The translations under genes and the position numbers were made by a program. Positions 29,326 to 50,210 of a stretch of 64,000 nt of DNA are shown piece by piece (position 1 is the first letter of the stretch; each line of letters starts with the position of its first letter). The notes under the pieces were generated by a model. That model saw nothing but the letters and a program-made list of their open reading frames with translations, did not search any database and was not told where the DNA came from. Origin of the DNA: Dyadobacter sp. 676 (GTDB lineage Bacteria; Bacteroidota; Bacteroidia; Cytophagales; Spirosomataceae); assembly GCF_040448675.1 (NCBI RefSeq), contig NZ_CP159289.1, positions 3,497,001 to 3,561,000 of the forward strand, written 5' to 3'.

Positions 29326-29377
29326 ATTTTCAATGTCGGGATGACAAGATTCGAACTTGCGACCCCTAGCACCCCAT
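29326..29377. repeat. Left attachment site (attL), 52-bp repeat of the tRNA-Pro 3' end
   Basis: These 52 bases are identical to 50159-50210. They contain the 3' part of tRNA-Pro(GGG): discriminator, acceptor strand, T arm, variable loop and part of the anticodon arm, ending at ACCCCAT. Beyond that point the sequence no longer matches a tRNA. This is the pattern left when a tyrosine integrase inserts an element into a tRNA 3' end. Confidence 0.92.
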
Positions 29378-29462
29378 TGGATATTTATTGTATTATTCCA
29401 AGAAGTTTTATTGAGCATGATTATCATAAAATGCTCTGAATGAGCATTTTGATTATTTTTAG

Positions 29463-29516
29463 TAACTTTGGTTAACTTACGTTAGACACGAAATGTTCGA
29501 CCTATGTTCGACCTAA
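29463..29516 (+). promoter_or_regulatory. Integrase promoter box and arm-like repeats
   Basis: TAACTTTG at 29463-29470 fits a Bacteroidota -7 box. Just after it (29493-29516) are two tandem copies of ATGTTCGACCT. The same 24-bp unit occurs at 50097-50120 near the right end. GAGCAT and ATGCTC inverted repeats lie at about 29413-29446. Together they look like promoter plus integrase/excisionase arm sites; the function is inferred. Confidence 0.5.
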
Positions 29517-29528
29517 AGATGTAGTGCT

Positions 29529-30766
29529 ATGGCTATTTCGACCAAGTTTGTATTACGGAAGAAACGTGATTCGGAGGAAACTCAGTTCCCGATAATGCTG
29601 CAAATCATTATCGACAGAAAGAACCTTCTGGTGAGTACGAGGAAGATATGTTCGGAAGTTCAATGGCAGCCGAAGTTTCAATCCGTTGCAAAAACACATT
29701 TGAAGCACAAGGAAATTAACCTTCTGCTTCGCACCATTGAGTCGGAGGTAGACTTCATGATCATCTCTTACGGGAAGCAAAATAAGCGCCCCTCGTTTGA
29801 CGAGATCAAGGCGCTGGTCAAAAAACTGACTGCGGGCATACGGAACCTGAAAAGAAAAAGCTGTTTGTACTTTTTGAAGAACACATCGCTAAGCTAAAAA
29901 GCCAAAACCGGCTGGGCAGCGCTGAATCACATAACTCGACCCTAAAAAGCCTTAAACACTTTATGAATCAGAAGGATCAGGATATCCTCTCGATCGGTTT
30001 GCCATTCATCAACCGTTATGAGCAATGGCTGATCGAAAAAGGCTGCACGATCGTCACGAGAAGTTTTTATCTGAGAACCTTCCGTACACTGTGGAAAGTC
30101 GGGATCAAGGAAAACTATTATCCGGAAACGCACTATCCCTTCAAAGACTTCTCGTTCTCTAAATACAATAACCCTCGCACAAAGAAGCGGGCGATCACGA
30201 AGGAACAGATCGAGTTGATTGCCGGAGCTGAAATCGATCCGGAAAATGATTCACTGATCAACTCGCGTAACTACTTCCTGTTTAGCTTCTATTGCCGAGG
30301 CCTGAACTTTACAGATTTGGCCGAATTGAAATGGACGAACATTGTGGATGGTGAGCTCCATTATGTGAGATCAAAAACAAAGGAAGAGTTCCGGTTTCGT
30401 TTGCACCCCTGGGCAGCTCAAATACTGGATTACTACAAAGATCTGAAAGGTAACAGCGATGCTGGCTTTGTGTTCCCAATCCTGTACAAGCGTCACGCAA
30501 CGATTCAATCGGTTCGGGATCGGAAGAAGAAGATTTTGACCAGGGTTAACAAGCAAATTAAAGAGTTGGGCATATCCCTCGGTATTTTGAAGCCTTTAAC
30601 GACCTATGTGGCCAGGCACTCGTATGCGACAACCCTTCGCCGAAATGGAATATCCAAGGAGAATATCGGGAGAACATTGGGTCACGATAGCTTGAAGACC
30701 ACTGATATTTATCTGGAAGACATTGGAGACCCTGTCCTGGATGATCTGATTAACTCAACGCTTTGA
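29529..30766 (+). pseudogene. Tyrosine integrase of the element, one-base frame break
   Basis: A Bacteroidota-type phage integrase (about 412 aa if repaired) that would catalyse insertion into tRNA-Pro. The N-terminal part (MAISTKFVLRKKRDSEETQF to VKKLTAG, 29529 to about 29838) has the arm-binding-type start. The frame then shifts near the GCGGGCAT at about 29836-29842. In the new frame TEPEKKKLFVLFEEHIAKLK leads into the SAM-like core-binding domain and the catalytic domain: Arg in CRGLNFTDLAELKW, ARHSYATTL, LGHDSLKTTDIYL with the Tyr nucleophile. One base lost from a G run explains the break. It lies 150 bp from attL, as expected. Either a sequencing error or a recent inactivation. Confidence 0.88.
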
Positions 30767-30770
30767 ACGG

Positions 30771-31838: not shown

Positions 31839-31904
31839 TCAACTTCATATTGTTTTTCCCCGATTTTCTGGCCTTGCTTTGCCCATCACCAAAACGCAAA
31901 AGGG

Positions 31905-32204
31905 ATGAGCACAACAGTTCTAGTTTCAATGAACGATCAGCAGTTATCAGAGTTGATCGAGTCTTCACTGCGCCGGGTTTTAGAGTCAAAACCGGAGGCT
32001 GCCGCCGATACCAGTGACACTTTGCTGGACACCAAGGAGGCCGCGCGCCTTACCAAATACAAGGAGACTTCCATTTATGGGCTGGTGAAAAGAAAAAAGA
32101 TCCCGTTCTGTAAAATGGAAGGCAAGCTACTCTTTTCACGCAAGGAGCTTCTGGAATGGATAGCCAATGGTCAGCAGAAAATCGGAGGTAGCCATGAAAG
32201 ATAA
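31905..32204 (+). CDS. Helix-turn-helix DNA-binding protein, excisionase-like
   Basis: A 99-aa protein. The C-terminal half (about residues 44-95) is a winged-helix domain of the MerR/HTH_17 excisionase type: LLDTKEAARLTKYKETSIYG with LVKRKKIPFCKMEGKLLFSR and KELLEWI. The N-terminal 40 residues are a Ser/Glu-rich helix. Such proteins act as recombination directionality factors or repressors in Bacteroidota mobilizable elements. Its last 11 bp overlap the start of the helicase gene, which points to one operon. Confidence 0.82.
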   Translation: MSTTVLVSMNDQQLSELIESSLRRVLESKPEAAADTSDTLLDTKEAARLTKYKETSIYGLVKRKKIPFCKMEGKLLFSRKELLEWIANGQQKIGGSHER

Positions 32205-33399
32205 TCCGGTTTACCTGCGCATTGGTACCAGTTACTTTAAGAAAGTCAACCGGCCATTATCCTCCGGCGACACAATTTCCTCTTTGATCCCCTGGTCGGC
32301 TGAATGCATTCGGCTGGATCACAGCCGTGACTACTTGAAGGACCGGGTAGATTGTTACGACGGCTTTTGTTTTGTTCCGAGCCATCTGGACTACCAACAG
32401 AAGGTCGGCGGGTTCTACAACCGCTACCAGCCATTCCAACATGAGTCGCGGCAGGGCGATGCCTCTGTGATCTTTCAGTTCCTGAGTCACATTTTCGGTG
32501 AGCAGATCGAGATGGGTTATGACTACTTTAAAATCCTGCTCGAACGTCCGACCCAAATCCTTCCAATTTTGTGCCTGGTGAGCGAGGAGCGCGGAACCGG
32601 AAAGACTACATTCCTGCATTTTGTCAAATCCATCTTCGGCGAAAACATGACGATCAACAGCAATGAGGATTTCCGCTCCAATTTCAACATCGAATGGGCA
32701 CAGAAACTGGTCATCGGCGTTGACGAAACATTCCTGGATAGAAAGGAGGATTCAGAGCGGATCAAGAATCTGAGCACGGCTAGATTTTACAAAGTAGAGG
32801 CCAAAGGCCATGACCGGCAGGAAGTGGAGTTTTTCGGAAAATTCATTTTGTGCAGTAACAACGAAGATCACTTTATCATCGCAGAGCCAGGGGAAATCCG
32901 ATACTGGGTGAGAAAGGTGCCACCACTAAAATCAGAGAATCACCACTTGCTTGCCCAGCTTCGGGCGCAGATCCCGTACTTTCTGCATTTTTTGGTGAGC
33001 CGTGACTTCGTCCATCCCAGTAAAACAAGAATGTGGTTTACTGCGGATCAAATTGCGACACCTGCATTGAAAAAGCTGCTGAACCAAAATCGGAATAAGC
33101 TGGAAGTGGAGATCGCCCATATCCTGCTGACGATCGCAGATGAAAAGGAGCTGGATGAAATCCGGTTTTGCACCGGGGATGTCCAGGACTGGCTCAATAA
33201 AAAACACATTCGTTTCAAAGACCTCTCACAGATCAAGCGGATCCTGCAAAATGCCTGGAAGTTGAGCCCGGCGAGTAATTCACTGACTTACCCGCAATAC
33301 AAATTTTTAACCAACGGTTCAATCTTCGAGCAGACCGGCAAGGGCAGATTCTATACCCTATCCCGAGGGCGCATAAATGAGCTCAACGAATTGCCCTAA
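32194..33399 (+). CDS. Mobile-element primase-helicase, DUF5906/SF3-type
   Basis: A 401-aa ATPase from ATG 32194 (MKDNPVYLRIGTSYFKKV), preceded by GGAGG at 32184-32188; a longer frame from 32167 is less likely. The ATPase core has Walker A (EERGTGKTTFLHFV, about residues 138-151), Walker B-like KLVIGVDETF and the sensor segment KFILCSNNEDHFI, as in superfamily 3 helicases and the DUF5906 family. A winged-helix-like C-terminus follows. It probably unwinds DNA when the element replicates after excision or during transfer. The iteron-like cluster begins directly after its stop, and the primase follows. Confidence 0.82.
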   Translation: MKDNPVYLRIGTSYFKKVNRPLSSGDTISSLIPWSAECIRLDHSRDYLKDRVDCYDGFCFVPSHLDYQQKVGGFYNRYQPFQHESRQGDASVIFQFLSHIFGEQIEMGYDYFKILLERPTQILPILCLVSEERGTGKTTFLHFVKSIFGENMTINSNEDFRSNFNIEWAQKLVIGVDETFLDRKEDSERIKNLSTARFYKVEAKGHDRQEVEFFGKFILCSNNEDHFIIAEPGEIRYWVRKVPPLKSENHHLLAQLRAQIPYFLHFLVSRDFVHPSKTRMWFTADQIATPALKKLLNQNRNKLEVEIAHILLTIADEKELDEIRFCTGDVQDWLNKKHIRFKDLSQIKRILQNAWKLSPASNSLTYPQYKFLTNGSIFEQTGKGRFYTLSRGRINELNELP

Positions 33400-33400
33400 T

Positions 33401-33585: not shown

Positions 33586-33618
33586 CATCAATTTTTTCAC
33601 CTTCAAGACCCTGTAATT

Positions 33619-34554
33619 ATGACTTGCGAGCAAGCCAAACAGATATCTATGGTAGACCTGCTGGAACAATGCCATATCCGCCCCCAATATGTCCGGGGAC
33701 AAGACCATTGGTACCTCTCTCCATTCAGGAATGAGAAAACGCCTTCTTTTAAGGTCAATGCGCGGTTGAATCTCTATTATGACCATGGAAGCGGTCAGGG
33801 AGGAGATATCATTGATTTAGGGCGCGCCCTGTTTCGTTGCGATACAAAAGCGTTGTTGGAGAAATTGGATTCCGGTCTTTTTCTATTTCAACCGCAAGAC
33901 CCAAAATCGGCTGGCTTGCATATAGACAGTGCCGTTACACCAGCCAGAGCAATCGATCAGCCTGCCATCCAAATTACTGCTTTGAAAGAGTTAGGGACTA
34001 ACCCTGCAGTTACCCAGTACCTGGAATCGCGCGGTATCGATCTGGCCGTTGCTAAATCATATTGTCAGGAGGTATACTACCGGGTCGGCGACAAGAATTA
34101 TTTCGCTGCTGGCTTCGAAAACCGGTCGGGCGGCTATGAGCTGAGAAGTGCCTACTTCAAGGGCTCGACATCTCCGAAAGACATATCCCATATCGAGAAT
34201 GGTCATAGCTCGGTCTGCGTGTTGGAAGGCTTTATGGATTTTTTGTCGCTTCTCTCGCTTCGAAAACAGGAGCAGGTCCAGACCGACTTTGTGGTGCTCA
34301 ATTCGGTAAGTCTGGCAGAGCGAAGTGTGGACATTGTCAAAGGTTACAGCACCGCTTTTCTATATCCGGATCATGATGCAGCTGGGAAAAAGTTGCTCGA
34401 AAGATTCGAGAGCGCAGGGATTAATGGTGTTGATACGTCGGGGATTTATCAGGATTACAAAGATCTGAACCAGATGCTGGTTGCAAGCAAACATCAGGAA
34501 AAACAGCCACAACATCGGTACCGTCACAGGAAGTCCCGAGGTCTGGGCCTCTAA
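33619..34554 (+). CDS. CHC2/TOPRIM primase of the element
   Basis: A 311-aa DNA primase-like protein. The N-terminal CHC2-like zinc-finger domain (about residues 10-70: HWYLSPFRNEKTPSFKVNAR and YYDHGSGQGGDIIDL) has the fold-defining residues. The TOPRIM domain (about 190-270) shows Glu in CVLEGFMDFLSLL and Asp-x-Asp in FLYPDHDAAGKKLLERF. The protein ends in a basic tail (QHRYRHRKSRGLGL), a tail also seen at the end of the relaxase. Such short primases occur in mobilizable elements of Bacteroidota, where they prime the transferred strand. It is preceded by the iteron-like region and followed by the candidate oriT. Confidence 0.85.
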   Translation: MTCEQAKQISMVDLLEQCHIRPQYVRGQDHWYLSPFRNEKTPSFKVNARLNLYYDHGSGQGGDIIDLGRALFRCDTKALLEKLDSGLFLFQPQDPKSAGLHIDSAVTPARAIDQPAIQITALKELGTNPAVTQYLESRGIDLAVAKSYCQEVYYRVGDKNYFAAGFENRSGGYELRSAYFKGSTSPKDISHIENGHSSVCVLEGFMDFLSLLSLRKQEQVQTDFVVLNSVSLAERSVDIVKGYSTAFLYPDHDAAGKKLLERFESAGINGVDTSGIYQDYKDLNQMLVASKHQEKQPQHRYRHRKSRGLGL

Positions 34555-34638: not shown

Positions 34639-34694
34639 GATGGTCGCAAAAGGTAATCAACAGATTTTGTCAATGAATGAAAGAGGTAGAAAGC

Positions 34695-35054
34695 ATGGAG
34701 CAAAAATCACACAAATCCAGAGGCGGAAGACCGCCCAAGAAGGTTAAACGAAATGCGCAACTGATGGTCCGACTTTCAGAGACCGAGCGGTTTTTGATCG
34801 AGTCCAAAGCCCGGGAAGCAGGCCTGCGTCCAAGCACCTGGTTGAGACAAGCTGCCAGGAAAGCCAGGGTTGTTGCGCGGCTTTCAGCGGAGGAAGCGGG
34901 TTTTGTAAGAATGCTGGCTGGTCTGGCCAACAACTTAAACCAGCTGCTTAGGTTTACGAATATGCAGGGTCTGCTTTACGAGACCAGAAAAGCCGCGCAG
35001 CTTCTATCAGACATTGATCATTTACTCAAAAGGCTCACTAACGATGATCGGTAA
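34695..35054 (+). CDS. Relaxosome accessory protein MobC-like
   Basis: A 119-aa small basic protein from ATG 34695 (MEQKSHKSRGGRPPKKVKRN), with GAGGT suitably upstream; an ATG 18 bp earlier is possible. The N-terminal basic segment and RLSETERFLIESKAREAGLRPSTWLRQAA fit the ribbon-helix-helix-like start of MobC/BmgB proteins. The segment AGLANNLNQLLRFTNMQG is the conserved NNLNQ core of the family. MobC proteins help the relaxase bind and open oriT. Its end overlaps the relaxase start by 11 bp, a usual arrangement. Confidence 0.88.
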   Translation: MEQKSHKSRGGRPPKKVKRNAQLMVRLSETERFLIESKAREAGLRPSTWLRQAARKARVVARLSAEEAGFVRMLAGLANNLNQLLRFTNMQGLLYETRKAAQLLSDIDHLLKRLTNDDR

Positions 35055-35982
35055 GATAATGATAGGATCAAGTTTCGGAGGGGCAGTCAGATATGTCATG
35101 CAGAAGGAGCAGGCTATCGTGCTTCATGGCGAAGGGGTCAGGACCCAGGATGTAAAGTCAGCAATCCATGACTTCAATGCTCAGCGCCAGATGAATCCCG
35201 AGCTGGGCAAGGCTGTCGGCCACCTGGTGCTGAGTTGGAGTGCGTTCGATAAGGATAAGCTCTCACAAAAGATTATGGTCGAAAGGGCTGCCGAATATAT
35301 GGCCAAAATGAAAATCCAGAACACCCAATATCTCATCGTTGAACATCGCGATACCAACCAGCCGCATATTCATATTCTCTACAACCGGGTTGATAACGCT
35401 GGCAAATCCATTTCGGACCGCTTTCAGAAGCGAATCAATCAGAAGGTTTGCAAAGAGATGACCCTGAAACACGGCTACTACATAGGCAAAGGAAAAACGC
35501 TGGTTAACAGGGGCATGCTTAAAGGGGTTGATAAAACGCGTTATGAGCTGGCAGATCAGATCAAGATGGCCAGCAGATCGGCAGTGAATTGGAAGCAATT
35601 GGAGGACGCGCTTTCATCGAGGGGGATTGGCATCATTTACAAGTATAAGTCTGGGACTAATCAAATGCAGGGTATCAGCTTTGAAAAAGACGGAACGGTG
35701 TTGAAGGGTTCGAAAGTGGACCGAAGCATGAGTTTTCTGGCACTTGATAGAAAGCTGCGGGAAAATTTTCAGCACCAGCTGGCGGTGAGGCGTCGGATGT
35801 TGGATCAGGGGATACTACCACCCGCGCAAAACAAAATGATTACTCACCGATATGGGTTGCCGCACTTCAGGGAAGAAAACGTGCTGAAAGACTTGATGGA
35901 TCCGGTACATCAACACGAGACGATTAATCCAGAGCTTAAAAGAAAACACAAACGAAAAAAATCAAGAGGACTACATTTATGA
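35044..35982 (+). CDS. Relaxase/mobilization nuclease
   Basis: A 312-aa relaxase of the MobA/VirD2-like type, which nicks oriT and leads the strand into the recipient. From ATG 35044 (MIGKIMIGSSFGGAVRYVMQ) it shows Tyr17 as candidate nucleophile, the segment GHLVLSW (residues 59-65) and the three-histidine metal site H101, H108, H110 in EHRDTNQPHIHILYNRVDN. The C-terminus is strongly basic (KRKHKRKKSRGLHL). It lacks a fused helicase, consistent with a mobilizable element that carries a separate one. Its stop overlaps the next gene by 4 bp. Confidence 0.9.
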   Translation: MIGKIMIGSSFGGAVRYVMQKEQAIVLHGEGVRTQDVKSAIHDFNAQRQMNPELGKAVGHLVLSWSAFDKDKLSQKIMVERAAEYMAKMKIQNTQYLIVEHRDTNQPHIHILYNRVDNAGKSISDRFQKRINQKVCKEMTLKHGYYIGKGKTLVNRGMLKGVDKTRYELADQIKMASRSAVNWKQLEDALSSRGIGIIYKYKSGTNQMQGISFEKDGTVLKGSKVDRSMSFLALDRKLRENFQHQLAVRRRMLDQGILPPAQNKMITHRYGLPHFREENVLKDLMDPVHQHETINPELKRKHKRKKSRGLHL

Positions 35983-36270
35983 AAGATATTGAAGATAAAC
36001 TTGATGGCTTCGAGCAGGTACTGGCCATCCTGGTAAAAAAGATCTCAGTGATGGAAAGCCTATTAACTGATCCCAAAGTTCCGGTTGATGATTTAGCACG
36101 CCATATGCTGGCTGATATTCAAGCCAGCATGGCAAAAATGCCGTCAGGAAACATTATGCTTTCTGAGCTTGCTGGTATTCGAAAGCGTCTTGACACATTA
36201 TCATCTGCTCTGGATATAATACTCCCAGAAATCTGGACAGCTGCTTAAATTTCTAACTTAGTAGCTGACT

Positions 36271-36558
36271 ATGAAAAAGGAACGTAGAAAATTCAGTGCG
36301 AGCTTCAAAGCCAAAGTGGCTATTGAAGCGATTAAAGAGGTTCAGACCGTGCAGGAATTGGCCTCCAAGTACGAGATTCATCCAACACAGATAGCTGCCT
36401 GGAAGCGAGAGTTTCTGGAAAAGGCTGAATTAGTTTTCAGTAAAGAGGCACCCACCACTGGTAATGAATCCGAAAACACAAAAGAGAAGGAATTGTATTC
36501 TAAAATCGGTGAACTTCAAGTCCAAGTCGATTTTTTAAAAAAGGTCTTGGGGAAATGA
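36271..36558 (+). CDS. IS3 OrfA, DNA-binding part of transposase (copy 1)
   Basis: A 95-aa helix-turn-helix protein of the IS3 OrfA/InsE type (KRRKFSASFKAKVAIEAIKE-like start, then ELASKYEIHPTQIAAWKREF, residues 31-50) with a C-terminal leucine-zipper helix. It overlaps orfB by 4 bp. The A6G slippery sequence at 36537-36543 just before the overlap allows a -1 ribosomal frameshift. This would give the OrfAB transposase, the known way the family makes its active enzyme. Confidence 0.93.
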   Translation: MKKERRKFSASFKAKVAIEAIKEVQTVQELASKYEIHPTQIAAWKREFLEKAELVFSKEAPTTGNESENTKEKELYSKIGELQVQVDFLKKVLGK

Positions 36559-37400
36559 GTGTTATGGAGAAACGCGGACTTGTTTCCCCTGAGTACCCTG
36601 AGCTAAGCGTCTCGGCACAGTGCAAATTGATTGGTTTACAGCGTAGTAGCTATTACTTTAGGCCGAGAGGTCAGTCTCTGTTAAACCAGCGATTGATGAA
36701 GGCCATTGATCGCCAGTTTCTAGAGTGCCCGTTTTATGGCGTAGAACGCATGCGTGATTACCTGATCGGACTGGGATATCCTGTTGGTGTGAAGCGGGTG
36801 AGAAGACTTTATAGACTTATGAATTTGCGCACAATTTATCCCAAGCGCAATCTAAGCAAATCCAAACCAACAGATTACAAATATCCATATTTGCTGAAGG
36901 GGTTGAAGATTGAGCGCCCCAATCAGGTCTGGCAAGCCGATATATCTTATATTCCAATGTTCAGAGGATTTATGTACATGTTCGCCATTATTGACGTTTA
37001 CAGCCGTCGAATTGTGGGATGGAGTATCTCCAATACAATGAGTATGGAATGGTGCCGGGAAACGCTTTTGGATACGATCCGTACACAGGGAAAGCCCGAA
37101 ATATTCAATACCGACCAGGGTAGCCAATTCACAAGTCAGGGTTTTATTAAGCCGCTCTTAGAGAAAGGGATACAAATTTCTATGGACGGAAAAGGACGGG
37201 CCCTAGACAATGTTTTCATCGAAAGATTTTGGAGGTCGCTCAAACAAGAGTACATATACTTAAATCCTCCAAATGGCGGGATGGATTTGTATCGGGGAGT
37301 AAAAGCATATGTGGAATTTTACAACCGTCGACGCAAACACACAGGAACCGGGTACATTCCCGATGAATTGTTTTTCCAGATCAATGCAAAAGCATCCTAA
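36555..37400 (+). CDS. IS3 OrfB, catalytic part of transposase (copy 1)
   Basis: A 281-aa DDE integrase-core protein of the IS3 family. It starts with the HTH_21-like region (SVSAQCKLIGLQRSSYYFRP), then the rve domain: first Asp in QVWQADISYIP, second Asp in IFNTDQGSQFTS, Glu in NVFIERFWRSLKQEYIY (DDE triad), with the end NRRRKHTGTGYIPDELFF. The frame is complete and undamaged, so this copy could be active. It is expressed mainly as an OrfAB fusion by -1 frameshift. Confidence 0.95.
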   Translation: MSVMEKRGLVSPEYPELSVSAQCKLIGLQRSSYYFRPRGQSLLNQRLMKAIDRQFLECPFYGVERMRDYLIGLGYPVGVKRVRRLYRLMNLRTIYPKRNLSKSKPTDYKYPYLLKGLKIERPNQVWQADISYIPMFRGFMYMFAIIDVYSRRIVGWSISNTMSMEWCRETLLDTIRTQGKPEIFNTDQGSQFTSQGFIKPLLEKGIQISMDGKGRALDNVFIERFWRSLKQEYIYLNPPNGGMDLYRGVKAYVEFYNRRRKHTGTGYIPDELFFQINAKAS

Positions 37401-37756
37401 TTAAACTTAATTTCATCCGTCGGCTGTCCAGCAAACCGGGAGTATTTCAGGAAAATCCTAAGCCAGTCACGTTCGACTTCAAGGCTAAAAGCTATTTCGT
37501 TTCATTAGCGGTACTGCTTTGTACTACCGCTGCTTCCCTTGCGACAGTTAGATGTTCGAATGAGAAAATTGAACAGGCGAGCCGAACTGCCGCGAGGTAT
37601 GAAGTGGCTCAGCAATTATCTCCTCGTCTAACCAGCATGATTGATAAAGCCTTCGACCAAGCAGCTGAACCCTCGGTAGATTCACTTCGGCGTGCGTGGG
37701 AGTTGCTGGATGCGAATTCACGCAAGCCTGAAAGTGGCAAGCGGAAACGACGATGA

Positions 37757-38088
37757 ACGAAGTACGGTTTAACGTCGGTAACTGCAATACACTGTAATTA
37801 GATTTCATGTACCACTAAACTGTACCGTTTAAGGCCGGTTTTCGCGAAAAACTACCCGAATGCAATTCATGCCGCGGAGTACAGAAAAACGACCGAATAT
37901 TTAGTCGCAATCTTTTGATAGATATTTTCTATACCTAACAAGCAGGTTGTATGCAAATACCCGTCTTGTTTCAATCTTTCATAATGTTTCGCTATTTTCT
38001 TGAAATCAGACTTTAAGGTTGAACATAGTATAAATGCTAACGTCCATTATAAGATGGCGTCACTTGCTTATTTGTCTTAAGCGATTGC
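37757..38088. other. Non-coding stretch with decayed repeat unit R1
   Basis: 332 bp between the split mob gene and the histidine kinase gene. From 37887 to 37952 it is about 80% identical to 40180-40247. Read on the plus strand it encodes NDRIFSRNLLIDIFYT followed by a stop, and the second copy encodes NDRIISRNATIDIFYT and a stop. It appears to be the tail of a lost gene. Nothing else is seen. Confidence 0.55.
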
Positions 38089-41276: not shown

Positions 41277-41296
41277 TGTATAGATTGTTTAAAAGG

Positions 41297-42856
41297 TTAC
41301 TGATAATATTCTTCACCCCTGATATTGTCGTGGTTAGGCATCGGCAGCTCGTCGGCGAACAGGCTGTCCTCGTACTGGTCCATCTTCTTTTCCAATATCA
41401 TCTGGATGATTTTGTAGTTATAAATACCATAGCTCAACGCGCGCTGGCATGCGCTGATCAGCCGTTGTTCGCCGGCCTTTTTTGCGAAGGACAAGATGCC
41501 GATGCAAGAGCGGTAGGCCTGCTCGGGATGCTGCTTACGGTCCAGTATTTTAAGGATATAAAGCCTTACGTCATCGTGGATCGAAGAAGCCCATTCGACG
41601 AACTTATCCGGGGTCCATTCGGTCAAAAAGCGGTGCGTGCTGGCCAGGTGCTCTTTATCGGTCGAGTAATTGTAGGGGCTTTTGACACGCTGATGCAGGG
41701 CTATGCGCTCATAACGGTAGTAAATCTCGACCAACGTGCCCGAGAACAGCAATTTGACCTTCTTGCCGATGAACCGGTACGGGACGCTGTAATAGTGCTT
41801 GTCGATGCTCAGGTTCACGTGCCCGTTTTTCATCACGGTCGCATGTGACTGCTTTTTGAACTCGTAGCGGAGCAGCGGCAGCGGAGAGAGTGCGCCTCGC
41901 TCGATCTCTTCGAACTGAAGCCTGCGGCTGTAATTGCGACCGCGTAGGAGCTGATTATTATGGACTTCCAGGGCCGCCCATATGGCTGCGTTTAGCTCGG
42001 ATAGTGAGTTAAAAACCTGCTTTCTTAAAGGCGCATAGATCCGGCTGTAAACGATTTTAACAGCCCCTTCGACCAACGCCTTATCGCGTGGCCGGTAAGC
42101 CCTGGTGGGTAATATGGTGGTCCCGTAATGGTTGGCAAAGTCCTCAAAAGTCTCGTTCAGGGTAGGTTCATACCGGTTGCTTTTGGTGACGGCCGCCTTG
42201 AGATTATCCGGGACTACGGCTGCCGGAACGCCACCGATGTAATGAAAAGCATTCTCACAAGCCAGGATCAGATCTTCTTTTTGCTGGCTCATGACCGCTT
42301 CCACATAGGTGAGCTGGCTGGCGCCCAGGATGGCAATAAAGACTTCAACCTCAATTACTTCGCCAGTCTCCCTGTTTACGAAGCTCAGCTTTACACCGGC
42401 AAAATCGATATAGAATTTATCGCCCGCTTTATGGTCCTGGTGCATAACAGGATTTACCCGGGCCTTCCACTGAGCCAGGTGGAAGCAGAACTGGGTATAG
42501 CCAAAACCGTCAGGGAATTCCTTTTTGTAGCTCTCCCAGAGCGAATAACGTGTCTCGCCGGTTTTTTTGAGCTCTTTATCTATCCGGGGAAAACAGCGCT
42601 GTAAGTTCAACAGCCTATCCTGCGGCGGCATCTGTCTAACTGCACCGAAAAACTCGTCCAGCTCTTTATCGTTCAGGCCGTTGATCTGCTCGAAAGTCAG
42701 ACCGCTCGCTTCAAAAGTAGCCATGTACTTCTTGGCCGTATTGCGGGAAACGCCCGTTTGCTCAGCAATAAAAAGCTTGCTGCGCCCTTGACTGTACATC
42801 CTTAGGATCTGTCTTATCTTATTCATGCTGATAGTCGAATTAGCCATACTTTCCAC
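41297..42856 (-). CDS. istA: IS21 transposase IstA
   Basis: A 519-aa DDE transposase. The N-terminus is a helix-turn-helix domain (NKIRQILRMYSQGRSKLFIA and QTGVSRNTAKKYMATFE, about residues 9-48). The integrase core is seen in KFYIDFAGVKLSFVNR (first Asp), AAVVPDNLKAAVTKSNRYEP (second Asp) and RPRDKALVEGAVKIVYSRIY (Glu). The C-terminal beta domain binds DNA. Length is normal for the family and the frame is intact, so with istB the IS could be active. Confidence 0.95.
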   Translation of the reverse strand: MESMANSTISMNKIRQILRMYSQGRSKLFIAEQTGVSRNTAKKYMATFEASGLTFEQINGLNDKELDEFFGAVRQMPPQDRLLNLQRCFPRIDKELKKTGETRYSLWESYKKEFPDGFGYTQFCFHLAQWKARVNPVMHQDHKAGDKFYIDFAGVKLSFVNRETGEVIEVEVFIAILGASQLTYVEAVMSQQKEDLILACENAFHYIGGVPAAVVPDNLKAAVTKSNRYEPTLNETFEDFANHYGTTILPTRAYRPRDKALVEGAVKIVYSRIYAPLRKQVFNSLSELNAAIWAALEVHNNQLLRGRNYSRRLQFEEIERGALSPLPLLRYEFKKQSHATVMKNGHVNLSIDKHYYSVPYRFIGKKVKLLFSGTLVEIYYRYERIALHQRVKSPYNYSTDKEHLASTHRFLTEWTPDKFVEWASSIHDDVRLYILKILDRKQHPEQAYRSCIGILSFAKKAGEQRLISACQRALSYGIYNYKIIQMILEKKMDQYEDSLFADELPMPNHDNIRGEEYYQ

Positions 42857-42899
42857 GGTTGGTATCCGCCAAAAATATGGGTGATTCTACAGCATTTTT

Positions 42900-43020
42900 C
42901 TGCTTGACAGGGTGGTCAGTTTCCTCCGAAACAGGTGGTCAGTTTGCTCCGAAACGGGGTGGTCAATTTCAGCCGGAACAGGTGGTCAGTTTAAACTGAA
43001 ATGGGGTGGTCAATTTCACC
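42900..43020. repeat. Subterminal repeats at the IS21 right end
   Basis: Five copies of GGTGGTCA(G/A)TTT lie at about 21-24 bp spacing between 42911 and 43016. In IS21-family elements such repeats bind IstA. The left end has only two copies (TTGACCACC at about 40424 and 40447). Confidence 0.8.
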
Positions 43021-43517
43021 GAATTTTCCAATCCGGAACCCGAACACCCGGCGGTCCTACTGGCGGTCGGCCACGGATTTCTTGGGCTACTGTGAGCAGC
43101 TCGGCGTCGGCTCCATCGACCAGGTCATGCCGCTGCATGTGGCAGCCTTGGTGGAAACACTTTGCCGGTCTGTATCCTCCCCTACTGTTAAGTTGCGGCT
43201 GGCGGCCGTGCGGCATTTACTGGATTGGCTGGCGACTGGCCAGGTAATCCCTCATAACCCGGCGGCATCGGTCAAGGGGCCGCGTCACTCGGTTCAGCGG
43301 GGCAAGACGCCTATACTAGACCCGGTCGAAGCGCGGGCGATTCTAGATGCAATTGATATCTCCACCGATTGGGTTGCGGGATCGGGCGCTGATCGGCCTG
43401 ATGGTTTATAGCTTCGCAAGGATAACTTAAACACCTGACATTTCAGAATTGTTTTGCAGTGTTTTAACGGACATCCTTGCCTACCATCTGCAGCCCTCAT
43501 ATGGATTCTGATCGTTA

Positions 43518-43865
43518 TTATCGGAGCTTTGCGGAAGTAACTACAAATGGTAAAGGTGTTATATTCATTCTTTCCAATGCTTCGGAAGTCACGAAATAGC
43601 CTGTCACATAAATGGCTAAACTGTCTTGCATAAATTGTTTTGGAAGATTACACCCGCCCCAAGCAACGCCGTTAGTTGCTACCAATTGGCTACCAATAGC
43701 CGTTCCGCCACTAAGCTGCACAACAACCGGCGCGTCAGTCACATTTTCGTCACGCGATAATCCCTCAAACCCAGAATAACATTCTAATCCAACTGGGCTG
43801 ATTTTGTCTTGTTTGCAATTGAGTAAACTTAGCATGCATATGCTAGCGATTAAAAGGCGGTTCAT
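43518..43865 (-). CDS. Small lipoprotein, unknown function
   Basis: A 115-aa protein with a lipoprotein signal (MNRLLIASICMLSLLNCKQD, lipobox cysteine C17). The mature part (KISPVGLECYSGFEGLSRDE to VVTSAKLR) has three further cysteine-containing segments (C29 in ECYSG and C73-type in WGGCNLP) and looks like a small beta-rich domain. I do not recognise it. Its start overlaps the preceding frame by 4 bp (ATGA), which suggests it is the last gene of the LytS/LytTR operon. It could be a target or partner of that system. The reading frame is intact. Confidence 0.6.
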   Translation of the reverse strand: MNRLLIASICMLSLLNCKQDKISPVGLECYSGFEGLSRDENVTDAPVVVQLSGGTAIGSQLVATNGVAWGGCNLPKQFMQDSLAIYVTGYFVTSEALERMNITPLPFVVTSAKLR

Positions 43866-44080
43866 AAGTCGGTTTGGTTTATATCCTTCATGAAAGTTTC
43901 GCGAGATGTTGAATCAAGAGTATCCCTACAAAAGGATTTATTCAGTGTCCGATTCGTTGGAAACAGGTATTCTCTCAAAACCCTCCAATTGCGAAACTGC
44001 TGGGTTTGATCGCTATTAGTCCCAAGGCAGTCAGGAATGAGACGTTTCATAAGGCGGTAAAGCTGTGACGCGATACTCAC
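43862..44080 (-). CDS. Short unknown frame between regulator and lipoprotein
   Basis: A 72-aa frame with GTG at 44080 or, more likely, ATG at about 44050 (MKRLIPDCLGTNSDQTQQF). It directly follows the LytTR regulator gene and overlaps the lipoprotein start by 4 bp. It is polar with no membrane helix. I see no family. Tight spacing on both sides argues for real translation, but composition gives no further support. Confidence 0.35.
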   Translation of the reverse strand: MSIASQLYRLMKRLIPDCLGTNSDQTQQFRNWRVLREYLFPTNRTLNKSFCRDTLDSTSRETFMKDINQTDL

Positions 44081-44828
44081 TCAACTTTTTAGTAATTGTT
44101 TTATTTCTTCCTTTTTACTTCTTGCTACAGGGATCTCAGATCCATCCGTTAGCAACAAAAAATCGCCAAATTCTCTCTTCCAGCTTTTGATTGACGTTTT
44201 GTTTACCAAATGAGACTGGTGACAACGAATAAAGCCATATTGTTTTAATAAGTCATCGTAAAAGAAAATCGGCTTGCAAATAACTAGATTTTCCCCGCCT
44301 ACGAGGTAAAAGGTTGTGTAATTGTTATCCGATTCACATCGGATAATTTCATTGGATTTTACAAAGCGCGTTTCTTTTAGTAGTTGCTAATGCAATACGT
44401 TGCTCGGTAGATTTATCGTCATTTTTTAGGAAATGGATCAGGTTGTGCAGAAGATGATTTTCCTTTTTCAAAGAATGTTGCTGGTTCGCCCGCTGGACAG
44501 CGGCTTGTAGCTCTTCAATTGAAACGGGTTTCAACAGGTAGTCGATCGCGGAAAGCCGCATTGCCTGGATTGCGTACTGATCGTAAGCTGTCACGAAGAT
44601 AACTTCAAAGTCGATATGAGACAGACTACGTAGCCAATCGAACCCATTTTGTACTGGCATCTGAATATCGAGAAATACCAGATCTGGGTGGTGCGTATGA
44701 AGCAATTTGGTTGCAGATCGGGTATCGGCAGCAGCACTACAAATGTTGACCTGTGGGCAATAGGTCTCAATTAAAATCTGGAGATTGTCCAGGTTTGACT
44801 GTTCGTCATCTATCAATAAAGCTCTCAT
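44081..44828 (-). pseudogene. LytTR-type response regulator, frame broken in an A run
   Basis: A LytR/AlgR-type regulator, 248 aa when repaired. The receiver domain (MRALLIDDEQSNLDNLQILI, Asp in PDLVFLDIQMPVQNGFDWLR, Lys in DYLLKPVSIEELQ) is in one frame. The LytTR DNA-binding domain (ETRFVKSNEIIRCESDNNYT to KKEEIKQLLKS) is in another, ending at 44081. At 44375-44378 there are four A (minus strand) where three would keep frame. Its start overlaps the kinase end by 23 bp, so they form one operon. The start is taken as MRALLIDDE, not the longer upstream reading. Probably a functional gene with a sequencing indel. Confidence 0.88.
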
Positions 44829-46440
44829 CAAACCAGTGATTAAAAGTAAGCGTAATCCGTAACCCTGCTGGGAGAACATTGCTGATGTCCATTGTGATCA
44901 ACCGGTCAGGGTAGATTTGATTCAGTAATCTGATCCGATCATTGGTAAGCTTTAAACCGAAACCTGTCATTGGTTTCCCTTCGACCATACCGATACCATT
45001 ATCAGTTAGGTTTATGATCATTGCAGGACCAGATCGGGCTATTGACAGCTGGATTAATCCTTTTTCGCCCATGGAAGCGACACCATGCTTCACCGCATTT
45101 TCAACCAACGGTTGTAGCAATAAAGCCGGAATATCCGTTTCAGATGTGTTCACATCGGGCGCTATCTTGATATGATAGCTAAAACTAAACCGCAGCTTCT
45201 CTAATTTCAAATATGTATCCAACGTCTGAATTTCCTCGTAAAGAGAAATTTCGCTCTTTTGGCTATGAACGAGTGAATCCCGGGTCAGTCGCGCGAAGTC
45301 GGATAAATAGGCATTTGCTGCCCTCATATCCTGTTTATTCATAAGCGCCTGGATCGAGCTGAGCGCATTGAATATAAAATGAGGATTCAACTGAGCGTAA
45401 ATCGCCTTCAGTTCAAGCTGCAACCGCGATCTGTCCATTCGCCCCTGCTTAATTTTACGCCGTTGCCGGCCAAACATAGCTAGCAAACTCACCAGGAGTA
45501 CCGACAGCATGCAGGCCAAAACCCGGAAATAAATTGTCTGATACCATACAGGCTTAACCCGAAATGGATATTCAATCATATGCTGCGGCTGAGCTGAGTA
45601 CCGGATTTGGATCGCGTAGTGGCCAGGGGAAAAGTCTTTCAGCCAGATAAATGAATTGTCATAATCATTATCTCGCCAGTCCGTATGCAGCTGCCCATTC
45701 CGGATTAGCTTATACTGTATCTGTTTTCTATTAAATACACCATCTTGCAATGCGAAAACCAGGTTTTTATTGCTGGAAGACATGGTAAAGCCTAACGGGA
45801 AATTGCTTGCGGACTGTTTGTCGGGAAGCCAGGGCGATCGTATCTGCTGGAAAAACTTATCTAGGGTTTCGGAAGTATGGATGCTCATTATTTCAGGCCT
45901 GATTGCCTCCCAAGCCACCATTGCTGTAGCGATGATTGCTTCTCTCCTTACCATTCTGACATCTATGATCAGCATATTTCCTAGCGAGGTACGGTATCCT
46001 CCCAGATAAGCCATTTGGGGCAAGCCGGACTCCCGCATCTGCATTGAGTCAGTAAAGGATTGAATCGGATTCCACGGAACAAGCACTTTTTTGCTGGGAT
46101 ATTCTGTAACCCTGAACTGATATGCAGCCCTATTCCTATGATCAACGCTTTTCAAGAAAAATTGTGCGCACGCGGTATCGAACACAGTACGAGCAATCAT
46201 TTCTTTTGGTCTTAACCGGAGAAATTCTTTATCCTTCTTCAAGGTCTCAAAATGCTGACTTCGTTCGTGTGTTTCCCAAAATGAATTATTCTCTTTCCTG
46301 ACAGCAACAATTAACGCAGGCACCGATGGTTTAGTGCCGTTGTTCAGAAAACTGTGGGAATACTCGTCCCATTTAACTTGGGCATTCACAGAAGACAAGC
46401 AAGATATGACAGCGACAAATAACAGGAGCCCTTTTTTCAT
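44806..46440 (-). CDS. LytS-type sensor histidine kinase
   Basis: A 544-aa membrane kinase. Signal peptide (MKKGLLLFVAVISCLSSVNA, residues 1-20), periplasmic domain (21 to about 305) with a Y_Y_Y-like beta segment near residues 225-300 (FSPGHYAIQIRYSAQPQHMI), one membrane helix (about 306-327), the His_kinase domain with phospho-accepting His in QLNPHFIFNALSSIQALMN (about 354), and HATPase_c (LLQPLVENAVKHGVASMGEK; DNGIGM). This is the Bacteroidota form that pairs with LytTR regulators, and such a regulator overlaps its end. The N-terminal part (to about 215) resembles no family I know. The stimulus is unknown. Confidence 0.88.
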   Translation of the reverse strand: MKKGLLLFVAVISCLSSVNAQVKWDEYSHSFLNNGTKPSVPALIVAVRKENNSFWETHERSQHFETLKKDKEFLRLRPKEMIARTVFDTACAQFFLKSVDHRNRAAYQFRVTEYPSKKVLVPWNPIQSFTDSMQMRESGLPQMAYLGGYRTSLGNMLIIDVRMVRREAIIATAMVAWEAIRPEIMSIHTSETLDKFFQQIRSPWLPDKQSASNFPLGFTMSSSNKNLVFALQDGVFNRKQIQYKLIRNGQLHTDWRDNDYDNSFIWLKDFSPGHYAIQIRYSAQPQHMIEYPFRVKPVWYQTIYFRVLACMLSVLLVSLLAMFGRQRRKIKQGRMDRSRLQLELKAIYAQLNPHFIFNALSSIQALMNKQDMRAANAYLSDFARLTRDSLVHSQKSEISLYEEIQTLDTYLKLEKLRFSFSYHIKIAPDVNTSETDIPALLLQPLVENAVKHGVASMGEKGLIQLSIARSGPAMIINLTDNGIGMVEGKPMTGFGLKLTNDRIRLLNQIYPDRLITMDISNVLPAGLRITLTFNHWFDESFIDR

Positions 46441-46754
46441 GTTGCAAAATTTTTAACAACAAAAGAACCCATTTGAAGAATACTTTTTAGAAGGACTGTG
46501 AATGATGTAAGAATCACTGTGAATTCTGCTTACTGAGATGGGATAAAATAAGATCTCACAAAACGCTCCTACCTTGCGACGAAGACACTGCAATAGCCGA
46601 CTCGTCCACATACATATGAGCGTTTGCTTGTGTACTCCCGAAGTCAATGGGAAAGTACAGATTAATGTGTACTGTTCCGCGCTAAGTGAACCCAAATCTT
46701 TGTCCAAATGATATACAGCCAGATTTCTGGACGAGCTTGAAATTACACTTTAAC
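46441..46754. other. Non-coding stretch with decayed repeat unit R3
   Basis: 314 bp upstream of the LytS-type kinase. The part 46600-46754 aligns with about 40030-40185 (R2), for example shared AAAGTACAGATTAA and CACTTTAACGACC against CACTTAAACGACC. The unit is interrupted at 46755-46758 by the IS1182-type element. The kinase promoter must also lie here but was not identified. Confidence 0.5.
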
Positions 46755-46806
46755 GACCGTGGCTGTTGCACAACTCGGAAAATATCATGTTTGGGTGGTG
46801 GCGATG

Positions 46807-47097
46807 CTACTTCGCAGGCCGTATGAGTTTTGACATAAATTCGTAGCCTTCGCTGTTCAATGACATTCCGTAGGCGATGGCTTCTATTTGACGGTACAGT
46901 TCTGAATCAATCAAAATGTCGTATTCATACATTTGTGTTAGGATGGTATCGAATGCCAAACCAACTTCATTGCATTCAAGAAGTGACCGTGCCTCGGTGC
47001 AATCTTTTTCAGTTAACCCTAGGGACTCGCACTTTGATATTAAATTATATACCTTCTTATTAAGTGATTTTCCTATCATTTTAGTTGAATAAATCAA
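46807..47097 (-). CDS. MafI-like small protein inside the IS1182 element
   Basis: A 96-aa acidic helical protein. The segment ARSLLECNEVGLAFDTILTQ with MYEYDILIDSELYRQIEAIA resembles the MafI family of small immunity proteins from polymorphic toxin loci. The similarity is by eye and moderate. It lies between the left terminal repeat and the transposase start of the IS1182 element, on the opposite strand, so it moves as a passenger. No toxin gene is next to it. If it is an immunity protein, it is an orphan; a role in transposition is another option. ATG at 47097; a second ATG at codon 7 is possible. Confidence 0.55.
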   Translation of the reverse strand: MIYSTKMIGKSLNKKVYNLISKCESLGLTEKDCTEARSLLECNEVGLAFDTILTQMYEYDILIDSELYRQIEAIAYGMSLNSEGYEFMSKLIRPAK

Positions 47098-47314
47098 ATT
47101 AAATACTTCATTGTCAACGTGAAAATTTGTAACTTCAGGAATGCAAGGAAAGAAAAATTACTCGGAAAAGCTGTTCGTCAGCTTCCAACTTTCAGATCGT
47201 ATTCCGAAGGAAAACTTTTATCGAAGGATCGGTGAAACACTCGACATGCAGTTTTTATTATAATACTCCCAGAAATCTGGACAGCTGCTTAAATTTCTAA
47301 CTTAGTAGCTGACT

Positions 47315-47602
47315 ATGAAAAAGGAACGTAGAAAATTCAGTGCGAGCTTCAAAGCCAAAGTGGCTATTGAAGCGATTAAAGAGGTTCAGACCGTGCAGGA
47401 ATTGGCCTCCAAGTACGAGATTCATCCAACACAGATAGCTGCCTGGAAGCGAGAGTTTCTGGAAAAGGCTGAATTAGTTTTCAGTAAAGAGGCACCCACC
47501 ACTGGTAATGAATCCGAAAACACAAAAGAGAAGGAATTGTATTCTAAAATCGGTGAACTTCAAGTCCAAGTCGATTTTTTAAAAAAGGTCTTGGGGAAAT
47601 GA
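47315..47602 (+). CDS. IS3 OrfA (copy 2)
   Basis: Identical 95-aa protein to the OrfA at 36271-36558: a helix-turn-helix DNA-binding protein with a leucine-zipper end. The slippery A6G lies at 47581-47587 for -1 frameshifting into orfB. The frame is intact. Confidence 0.93.
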   Translation: MKKERRKFSASFKAKVAIEAIKEVQTVQELASKYEIHPTQIAAWKREFLEKAELVFSKEAPTTGNESENTKEKELYSKIGELQVQVDFLKKVLGK

Positions 47603-48444
47603 GTGTTATGGAGAAACGCGGACTTGTTTCCCCTGAGTACCCTGAGCTAAGCGTCTCGGCACAGTGCAAATTGATTGGTTTACAGCGTAGTAGCTATTAC
47701 TTTAGGCCGAGAGGTCAGTCTCTGTTAAACCAGCGATTGATGAAGGCCATTGATCGCCAGTTTCTAGAGTGCCCGTTTTATGGCGTAGAACGCATGCGTG
47801 ATTACCTGATCGGACTGGGATATCCTGTTGGTGTGAAGCGGGTGAGAAGACTTTATAGACTTATGAATTTGCGCACAATTTATCCCAAGCGCAATCTAAG
47901 CAAATCCAAACCAACAGATTACAAATATCCATATTTGCTGAAGGGGTTGAAGATTGAGCGCCCCAATCAGGTCTGGCAAGCCGATATATCTTATATTCCA
48001 ATGTTCAGAGGATTTATGTACATGTTCGCCATTATTGACGTTTACAGCCGTCGAATTGTGGGATGGAGTATCTCCAATACAATGAGTATGGAATGGTGCC
48101 GGGAAACGCTTTTGGATACGATCCGTACACAGGGAAAGCCCGAAATATTCAATACCGACCAGGGTAGCCAATTCACAAGTCAGGGTTTTATTAAGCCGCT
48201 CTTAGAGAAAGGGATACAAATTTCTATGGACGGAAAAGGACGGGCCCTAGACAATGTTTTCATCGAAAGATTTTGGAGGTCGCTCAAACAAGAGTACATA
48301 TACTTAAATCCTCCAAATGGCGGGATGGATTTGTATCGGGGAGTAAAAGCATATGTGGAATTTTACAACCGTCGACGCAAACACACAGGAACCGGGTACA
48401 TTCCCGATGAATTGTTTTTCCAGATCAATGCAAAAGCATCCTAA
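47599..48444 (+). CDS. IS3 OrfB (copy 2)
   Basis: Identical 281-aa DDE transposase to the OrfB at 36555-37400, overlapping orfA by 4 bp. All catalytic residues are kept, so it could supply transposase for both copies. Confidence 0.95.
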   Translation: MSVMEKRGLVSPEYPELSVSAQCKLIGLQRSSYYFRPRGQSLLNQRLMKAIDRQFLECPFYGVERMRDYLIGLGYPVGVKRVRRLYRLMNLRTIYPKRNLSKSKPTDYKYPYLLKGLKIERPNQVWQADISYIPMFRGFMYMFAIIDVYSRRIVGWSISNTMSMEWCRETLLDTIRTQGKPEIFNTDQGSQFTSQGFIKPLLEKGIQISMDGKGRALDNVFIERFWRSLKQEYIYLNPPNGGMDLYRGVKAYVEFYNRRRKHTGTGYIPDELFFQINAKAS

Positions 48445-49971
48445 TTAAACTTAATTTCATCCGTCGGCTGTCCAGCAAACCGGGAGTATTTCATTATACC
48501 GAGATACCAGCAACCTTTACGGTAAAACCGGCAACCCATCGATCGATCCCGTTGTGTTCTTCAAGTTAATGCTGACCGGTTATTTGGAGAACATCACATC
48601 TGATCGTCGTCTGATCGAGCATTGCTCGATGCGAATGGACATTCTTTACTTTTTAGGCTACGATATTGATGAGCAGCTGCCTTGGCATTCGACTATCAGC
48701 AGAACCAGGCAACTATATCCCGCCACCGTTTTTGAAAGTCTGTTCGATAAGGTTTTTGCTATGTGTGTTGACAAAGGGATGGTCAGTGGACATACTCAAG
48801 CCTTGGATTCCGCCCCCGTCAAAGCGAATGCCTCAATGGAAAGTCTTGAATTGAAACGGCCATTTCAATCAATCAAGAACCACTTTGAGAATGTTGATGC
48901 TGAAAATCAACAGCAGATAAGCACTGGCATAGCTTCGCCCGTGGGGTTAATAACTGCGCCCTCACATCATCTCAGGCGCATGAAATCTCACCAGGAAAAA
49001 CTTCGCGAAAACCCTGTAAGTGCTAGCGGCGCTGCTCACGAAAGAGCACAGCTGTTCAGCAATAAGACACATTACAATCCCCACGATCCAGATGCACGGA
49101 TTTCAGTAAAGCCTGGCAAAGCAAGAAAACTCAATTATCACTGTAGTATGGCAGTCGATACAGGCCAAGGGGTAATCAGCCATATACAGGCAGATTTTGC
49201 CGATGGGAGAGATAGTCAGTATTTGCCAGCAATGACTGAAAAGGTCGAAAGCCGGCTAAAGGTGAATGAACTGTGCATGACAGATCTGCTAGCAGATGGC
49301 GGTTACTCCAACGGTTACAATTATGAATACTTGGAATCACGAAACATCACAGCCTGGATACCTGTTTTTGGAAAGTACAAACCGGAAAGGGAATGGGTCA
49401 CCTACGACAGGCAAGAGGATGTTTTTATCTGCACAATGAATAAGAAAATTCCATTTAAAGGCTTCGGCCGAACTTCCGATGGACAGCCAATAAAGAATTA
49501 TCGGGCTTCTAAAAAAGATTGCATTCCCTGCGTTCTCAAAGATTCTTGTACCCCTAAGTCCCTATTTAAAAGAATATTCACAACAACCTATGAAGATTAT
49601 TACTATCGAGCTCATGAAAGGCAACACAGCAGGCAAGGCAAACAGATGAAACGACTGCGACAGAGTACAATTGAGCCGGTCTTTGGAAGCCTGGTTCATC
49701 ATTACGGGTTAAGCAAAATCAATGTTCTAGGAAAAGCTGCCGCTCACAAGGTGATGCTGATGTCGGCCATATGCTTCAATCTTAAAAAGTACCTTAAAAC
49801 ATTTAATAGGAAATGGGTGCAGAGTGCATCAAAAGAGGCCGTAGGGCATTGTGATGCTACGTTCCTAGTGCCTTTTAATCGCGTTGACTTGACCTCATGA
49901 AATTCTCGGTAAAGTACCTATTGAAATTCACTCACCAGAAATTTCCTGCTAGTTGTGCAACGGCCACGACC

Positions 49972-50158
49972 GTATAATCGAACACTGGTCGAGCTAGTCG
50001 ATCAAAGATTTTGATGCCTTTTATGGAAGTCGAAGTCTTAAATTAGGCGCGATAAGTACGACGACAACAAGAAAAACTCAATGAACCTGAGAAAAAATGT
50101 TCGACCTATGTTCGACCTAATGAAAAAGCCACTTACAACTCTCGGTCATAAGTGGCTG
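49972..50158. other. Right end of the element: arm-like repeat and terminator
   Basis: No gene. It holds the 24-bp unit of two tandem ATGTTCGACCT copies at 50097-50120, matching 29493-29516 at the other end. A stem AGCCACTTA (50127-50135) with TAAGTGGCT (50149-50157) acts as terminator for tRNA-Pro on the minus strand. Sequence from about 50006 resembles the chromosomal flank left of attL. Confidence 0.6.
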
Positions 50159-50210
50159 ATTTTCAATGTCGGGATGACAAGATTCGAACTTGCGACCCCT
50201 AGCACCCCAT
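50159..50210. repeat. Right attachment site (attR), 52-bp repeat
   Basis: Identical to 29326-29377. Here the repeat forms the 3' part of the complete tRNA-Pro, so the incoming element restored the tRNA with its own copy of the 3' end. Confidence 0.92.

Follow-up and report, generated by a model that had tools for sequence, protein, structure and literature searches.

Operon-sized cassettes joined at a res-like site on a mobilizable tRNA-Pro island of Dyadobacter: a possible resolvase-driven analogue of integrons

We analysed a 64,000-nucleotide stretch of Dyadobacter sp. 676 (the window; positions 3497001–3561000 of a single contig of 7,284,078 bases), in which an island with two cassette-like modules as cargo lies between two exact copies of a 52-bp direct repeat of the tRNA-Pro(GGG) 3′ end (Table 1). 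A first-pass annotation, made from the letters alone, had placed this repeat correctly; its right copy, attR, overlaps the 3′ part of the tRNA gene, which is intact. A 34-nt stretch of the attachment (att) repeat, with up to three mismatches allowed, occurs twice in the window (in 0 of 100 window shuffles) and, genome-wide (7.28 Mb), only at the two island ends, so a second copy of the island in this genome was rejected. Pfam matches follow the order that had been predicted, of integrase, excisionase-like protein, helicase, primase, MobC and relaxase, except that the integrase is in two pieces. The conserved 355-aa backbone protein has no Pfam match, and the relaxase has further matches, below cut-off, to the Bacteroid_MobB and TraI_MobP models. 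One relaxase and no type IV secretion system domain were found by Pfam among 19 island open reading frames (ORFs), small ORFs lying outside the scan. The island combines a relaxase without mating-pore genes with its own integrase and att repeats at a specific target, as expected of an integrative mobilizable element (IME). Tandem TGTTCGACCTA repeats stand at both island ends, with 26–27 nt identical to the right-end copies of relatives while the backbone is only 72% identical; this is as expected for integrase arm sites, which they probably are.

The tRNA-Pro(GGG) locus could be read in 31 of 47 congeners (G numbers below). The same integrase stands beside that att sequence in eight of them (G005, G006, G009, G013, G017, G018, G025 and G035), and the helicase, primase, NikA-like and relaxase genes follow it in seven, the G013 piece ending within the integrase; in G013 and G035 the left island end and the tRNA are on separate contigs. 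Cargo behind the backbone varies among these carriers. The first-pass annotation had proposed comparison with elements sharing the integrase and relaxase, as above, and a search of relatives for an empty tRNA-Pro site, which was also found: a query of left flank, one 52-bp repeat and right flank matched 134 uninterrupted bp in G029 (95%) and G003 (92%), a clean junction whose strength is limited by its left flank of only 49 bp, because the species diverge in the DNA beyond it. In neither G029 nor G003 was a backbone gene seen next to tRNA-Pro. From about 29110, the DNA just outside attL aligns to the island right end (score 77, against at most 41 in 200 shuffles), which suggests that an older related island probably occupied this place earlier. 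Relatives of the backbone were found, among the data searched, only within Dyadobacter and on one contig labelled as a cyanobacterium; this 6-kb contig (L212, Nostocales cyanobacterium LEGE 12452), with an integrase 85% identical to the G025 copy, is likely to be assembly contamination.

Given its att repeats, its MobA/VirD2-type relaxase, the recurrence of integrase and tRNA together and the island-free junctions, the island is, by its sequence features, an IME at the tRNA-Pro(GGG) 3′ end, of a known kind. Passages of PMC5704250 describe the Bacteroidetes IMEs NBU1, NBU2, Tn4555 and Tn6031, with tRNA-Leu (NBU1), tRNA-Ser (NBU2) and tRNA-Pro (Tn6031) as targets, and MobP IMEs at tRNA ends. As far as those passages go, the window island resembles these elements in its tyrosine integrase, MobP-type relaxase, tRNA 3′-end target and size range, and differs in having no recognised resistance gene and in its cargo, a site-bounded cassette array. 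The island itself is not new in kind; the cassette cargo is the unexpected part.

Both cargo modules encode two-component parts, in keeping with the earlier view of signalling as cargo, and Pfam supports the kinases, receivers and LytTR domain of the kinase–receiver pair and LytS/LytTR operon that had been named. The LytR receiver stops before the LytTR domain, which continues in another frame, the shift lying near 44350. What the first-pass annotation missed was the structure, two core-bounded modules with four insertion sequence (IS) copies, and its gene list left out both the IS copies and a relic XerC-like tyrosine recombinase. The first module holds the kinase and receiver, the second the lipoprotein-like protein (without a Pfam match) and LytR/LytS, and the two are joined at the core ACGACCG. 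This core stands at 37889, 40182, 46753 and 49966, the last two positions flanking an IS1182-family element, and both modules finish in similar 160-bp sequences, for which an nhmmer profile was made from nine seeds, both window copies included. Alignments of the window backbone with G025 and G017 end 7–10 nt beyond the core on the left and resume at core 49966 on the right, where the IME right end (core plus 277 bp) is 99.6% identical to G025 and 84% to G017; the undivided form of the site is visible at 29110, in the relic outside the island. As read from these alignments, the cassette boundaries are well supported. Elsewhere in the same genome, outside the island, another cassette-end element with core (G000:C1:4905374–4905474; L067, L101) adjoins a DoxX-like gene set also present in the G012 array.

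The junction recurs across the genus. A 27-nt junction pattern, searched with at most three mismatches, gave 30 matches in 16 of 48 genomes and a single match when reversed, and ACCG was kept in 30 of 30 despite mismatches being permitted there. Up to the site, G023 and G022 agree at 200 of 200 nt; past it, their sequences are unrelated. One module is common to G004, G023, G024 and G026, each time with a different left half (three of the four being related recombinase leaders and the fourth weakly similar), and three further modules show the same swap pattern against differing left halves. Junctions enclose module X (6.66 kb) in both G012 and the G017 IME, and its G029 copy adjoins a recombinase. 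In the G017 IME and in G029, X is followed by module Z (more than 10 kb), which also occurs in G044. Module W (1.15 kb) is bounded by sites in G044 and has further copies in G012 and, next to a recombinase, in G017; an arsenic operon is common to G012 and G025. With genes named by eye, the modules are made up of coherent operons, arsR to ACR3 and a sigma/anti-sigma/SusCD set among them, and the pool holds two-component systems, arsenic resistance, RND efflux and SusCD sets.

Ends of homology blocks also gather at the site: 26 of 122 interior ends lie at most 25 nt from one (mean 1.19 and maximum 12 in 2000 random shifts), and block ends match 22 of 39 sites, counting scanner sites only. The right junction of module X in G017, a variant core added by hand, was left out of this control; since the records were picked by their sites and the blocks depend on one another, the statistic supports exchange at the site and does not prove it. 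All 19 adjacent site pairs are direct repeats. Judged from these comparisons, operon-sized modules are exchanged at the core across the genus, site-bounded, with exact junctions and in direct orientation, on islands and platforms alike.

At the platforms the site accompanies a gene for a small serine recombinase of 203 aa, which has a Pfam Resolvase match and a weak, below-cut-off match to HTH_7, and whose nearest solved relatives are DNA-invertases and gamma-delta resolvase; the Mpi invertase and Ccr models are also matched below cut-off. The site lies 121–137 nt upstream of the recombinase start in 23 of 29 loci at 75% identity or more (18 of 22 at 80% or more, and 5 of 7 further loci at 75–94%). 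Between gene and site runs a conserved leader, in the layout of a Tn3-type res site, and the IME leader matches 62 of the 70 columns conserved among 18 recombinase leaders, the gene itself being absent. The half-sites form an inverted repeat centred on the dinucleotide AC, and the base left of AC varies between sites sharing a cassette; the site therefore seems better suited to a 2-bp serine exchange than to a 6-bp tyrosine exchange. At E 1e-60 the recombinase is found in 23 of 222 family genomes, all Dyadobacter, and paralogs at 48–54% identity have something similar to the site at two of eight loci (L202, L206). No transposase-sized ORF lies left of the recombinase at eight platforms, within the 0.7–2.7 kb in view. 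Several congeners also encode another type of small serine recombinase (~220 aa), with a 36-bp palindrome centred on ACGACCGT just upstream or nearby (L073–L077, L080 and L087–L095); a variant of this palindrome (window 40036–40071) lies within the cassette-end element.

We read these arrangements as an integron-like cassette system, of which the window IME carries an orphan array. The IME probably entered the tRNA-Pro(GGG) 3′ end through its own tyrosine integrase, and an orphan res-like recombination site follows its mobilization genes; there, operon-sized cassettes were joined at ACGACCG in direct orientation. The small resolvase/invertase-type serine recombinase, encoded beside the same site in other Dyadobacter, is the likeliest enzyme to move the cassettes and would act in trans on the IME, exchanging strands at the AC in the middle of site I so as to excise or insert cassettes as presumed circles. 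The IME would then be a vehicle for a genus-wide cassette pool and might spread the array. We consider this explanation as a whole, an IME with an orphan site, cassettes joined at the core and a small serine recombinase acting in trans, to be probable, with appreciable doubt.

That doubt has several sources. The site is lacking at 6 of the 29 recombinase loci (L183, L196, L199, L200, L219 and L221); at L190 and L195, left half and core are visible, but the full 25-nt score is no better than that of shuffles. The window's own genome gives no recombinase match at E 1e-40, which requires the assumption that the enzyme acts in trans or was lost earlier. Cassette ends fall into two kinds (A and B); some shared modules have far ends without a scanner site (X in G029, W in G012), and the module common to G004, G023 and G024 ends at +9.7 kb without one. 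Small resolvases usually act within one molecule, and insertion by one would be unusual. No reaction was seen, and among the sequences compared there was neither a circle nor an empty/filled pair within one strain.

Alternatively, the sites could be Xer (dif-like) sites, with 11-bp inverted arms around 6 bp (GTACAGAAAAA-CGACCG-TATTTGCGTAC), at which the chromosomal XerCD move the modules, the serine recombinase being a passenger. An 11-6-11 reading fits the site, as it does Acinetobacter dif sites, and in Acinetobacter, too, a gene for a 203-aa small serine recombinase forms a module (PMC12907356). We nevertheless think this unlikely: the base before ACCG differs between cassette-sharing sites (L139/L152, L097/L182), which a 6-bp tyrosine exchange should not tolerate; the distance from site to recombinase start is fixed, with a conserved leader between; and all neighbouring pairs are direct, whereas pdif modules are described with inversely oriented sites, in a title in the PMC12907356 reference list. 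The XerC-like relic was considered separately as a general driver and rejected: homologs at E 0.001 occur in just 5 of 48 genomes, and the intact copy in G029 lacks a clear site nearby (best matches, five mismatches).

A comparably small chance goes to an ordinary IME that gained its cargo through insertion of IS copies or transposons and through homologous recombination, with a core that is incidental or a target duplication. There are indeed four IS copies in the cargo interval, and the IS1182-family element did duplicate ACGACCGT on insertion, but the same core bounds unrelated modules in other genomes with no IS at the join and with unrelated flanks on either side.

A large serine recombinase near some arrays is a still less probable mover of the cassettes, although an exact core lies 476–481 bp upstream of its start in G012, G003 and G017, and G006 has a variant core about as far away. 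At 12 of the 15 loci read, the 3′ end of the recombinase gene meets or overlaps a tRNA gene (Arg, Lys or Leu), which suggests an attachment site of its own; moreover, IMEs carry arrays without this enzyme, and the window's own genome has only a 28% match. From its gene neighbourhoods it probably belongs to its tRNA-end islands. The family was seen in G012, G003, G017, G044, G006, G042, G018, G039, G029 and others; the far end of its tRNA-Arg island was not found with flank queries. That the small recombinase is a DNA invertase and the adjacent variable DNA a phase-variable inversion is very improbable, since adjacent sites are direct repeats and unrelated DNA follows an identical platform, even if the closest solved relatives are invertases and the Mpi model is matched below cut-off.

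A cassette system driven by the small serine recombinase can be set beside several known ones. With Tn3/gamma-delta resolvase–res systems and Hin/Gin invertases it shares the protein family and a crossover site some 120 nt away from the gene, across an interval that contains repeats, which is the res layout, found at the 23 loci above, with no enzyme beside the window array; unlike them, it appears to exchange unrelated cassettes, rather than to resolve cointegrates or invert one segment. Staphylococcal cassette chromosome (SCC) elements likewise have a serine recombinase and tandem cassettes with common cores, but Ccr enzymes belong to the large serine recombinases and travel in the cassette, whereas the Dyadobacter enzyme is small and lies beside the platform. 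Integrons work in a similar way: the recombinase gene adjoins a single platform site, the cassettes are directly oriented and arrays are shuffled between genomes, such same-orientation arrays being common to several genomes here. In place of an IntI-type tyrosine integrase beside attI, the Dyadobacter platform has a small serine recombinase with a res-like site, and none stands beside the window array. Integron cassettes are single-gene, whereas those of Dyadobacter are whole operons of 0.9–13 kb. Boxes of attC are GTTRRRY, which the cores CGGTCGTT/AACGACCG do not fit by inspection, and the core was rejected as an attC site. Orphan arrays without an enzyme and carriage on IMEs (PMC5704250) are a further likeness to integrons. 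The Acinetobacter dif/pdif modules, as they appear in parts of PMC12907356, are also discrete modules between short recombination sites and share the 11-6-11 reading; the Dyadobacter sites differ in being direct, not inversely oriented, and in having a dedicated recombinase beside the platform.

The IME copy in the window appears damaged and has apparently lost autonomy, given an integrase one base short, the missing recombinase match and the IS insertions. Relative to G025 the integrase lacks one base near 29831, which divides it in two, whereas six homologs align full length (412 columns). The completeness estimate for this genome is 95.3% (45 of 47 congeners are at 99–100%), so the integrase and LytR frameshifts are possibly sequencing indels. 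The four IS copies take up much of the cargo interval: IS3 has nine full-length copies in the genome, both window copies included, and IS21 has four at 100% (rounded). In three genomes (window 46753–49973; L184 in G038; L098 in G025) the cassette core is occupied by the IS1182-family element, flanked by ACGACCGT on both sides in the window, with one end in view in G038 and with ACGGTCGT and ACGGTAGT in G025.

Table 1. Features of the island and its borders (window coordinates)
Feature	Position	Strand	Basis
Relic right end of older related island, outside the island, with undivided cassette site at 29110	29095..29325	+	Alignment score 77
attL, left 52-bp repeat copy (tRNA-Pro 3′ end)	29326..29377	+	Exact repeat
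Left tandem TGTTCGACCTA repeat, probable integrase arm sites	29491..29517	+	Sequence identity
Tyrosine integrase, N-terminal piece (arm DNA-binding domain)	29529..29897	+	Pfam PF17293
Tyrosine integrase, core and catalytic piece	29963..30766	+	Pfam PF00589, PF13102
Conserved backbone protein, 355 aa	30771..31838	+	Found in 7 relatives' islands
HTH_17 protein, presumed excisionase-like	31905..32204	+	Pfam PF12728
DUF5906/VapE-like helicase	32167..33399	+	Pfam PF19263
Primase (CHC2 zinc finger, Toprim_2)	33619..34554	+	Pfam
NikA-like/MobC-like relaxosome protein	34677..35054	+	Pfam PF21983
MobA/VirD2-type relaxase	35014..35982	+	Pfam PF03432
Last mobilization-region gene, split by IS3; right end approximate	35979..37752	+	179 aa in G025, G017
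IS3-family element, splits last mobilization-region gene	36215..37449	+	Pfam rve/HTH_21
Res-like leader ending in site I (37877–37895), without recombinase gene	37761..37895	+	Leader column match
Cassette 1, 2293 bp	37889..40181	+	Core ACGACCG at both ends
Histidine kinase, RsbRD_N-like N terminus	38089..39291	-	Pfam
Single-domain response-regulator receiver	39491..39970	+	Pfam PF00072
Cassette-end element (B end) of cassette 1, with core	40028..40188	+	nhmmer profile
Cassette 2, 6571 bp, 2624 bp of it IS21	40182..46752	+	Core at both ends
Relic XerC-like tyrosine recombinase, cut by IS21	40296..43411	+	Pfam PF02899; intact homolog in G029
IS21-family element (istA, istB)	40407..43030	-	Pfam, NCBIfam
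Lipoprotein-like protein	43518..43865	-	77% homolog beside site in G027 (L160)
LytR-type regulator: receiver 44349–44879, LytTR out of frame downstream	44081..44879	-	Pfam
LytS-type histidine kinase	44806..46440	-	Pfam PF06580
Cassette-end element (B end) of cassette 2, with core	46595..46759	+	nhmmer profile
IS1182-family element in cassette core	46761..49965	+	ACGACCGT flanks at 46753–46760, 49966–49973
IS3 copy nested in IS1182-family element	47259..48493	+	Identical to 36215–37449 copy
Right half of cassette site and IME right end	49966..50158	+	Comparison with G025, G017
Right tandem TGTTCGACCTA repeat, probable integrase arm sites	50095..50120	+	Sequence identity
attR, right 52-bp repeat copy	50159..50210	+	Exact repeat
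tRNA-Pro(GGG), intact target gene	50168..50242	-	ARAGORN

The neighbourhood of the target tRNA has features of its own. A GIY-YIG nuclease gene (window 50276–50563, minus strand) lies between the intact tRNA-Pro(GGG) and a 3′-truncated tRNA-like copy, whose first 27 nt match tRNA-Pro(GGG). Copies of this gene occur once each in G005, G019 and G035 and three times in tandem in G036 (period ~316 bp; oriented locus 14321–15320), and each copy read, in G005 and G036, sits behind a truncated tRNA. Decayed copies of the tRNA-Pro 3′ end with terminator lie left of tRNA-Pro in G001, G040 and G042 and left of attL in G005, as ~106-bp tandem units in G042, each copy with a GC-rich T-loop insert.

Taken more broadly, Dyadobacter may possess a resolvase-driven analogue of the integron, which captures, stacks and exchanges operon-sized cassettes, whose orphan platforms are spread by tRNA-inserted mobilizable islands, and on whose 8-bp core an IS1182-family element homes; we regard the chances of this fuller picture as evenly balanced. 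Among the titles and abstract openings that searches of the open-access literature listed, a scope that leaves subscription journals mostly outside, none describes a resolvase cassette system or such a GIY-YIG/tRNA unit. Tyrosine recombinases (integrons, Xer modules) or large serine recombinases (SCC) serve the gene-capture platforms of which we are aware. If the picture is true, the chemistry known for modular gene capture would be broadened by a small resolvase that handles entire operons; this would also explain why one tRNA hotspot holds differing cargo in each Dyadobacter species; the short site, 28 bp plus leader, could be used to look for such arrays elsewhere.

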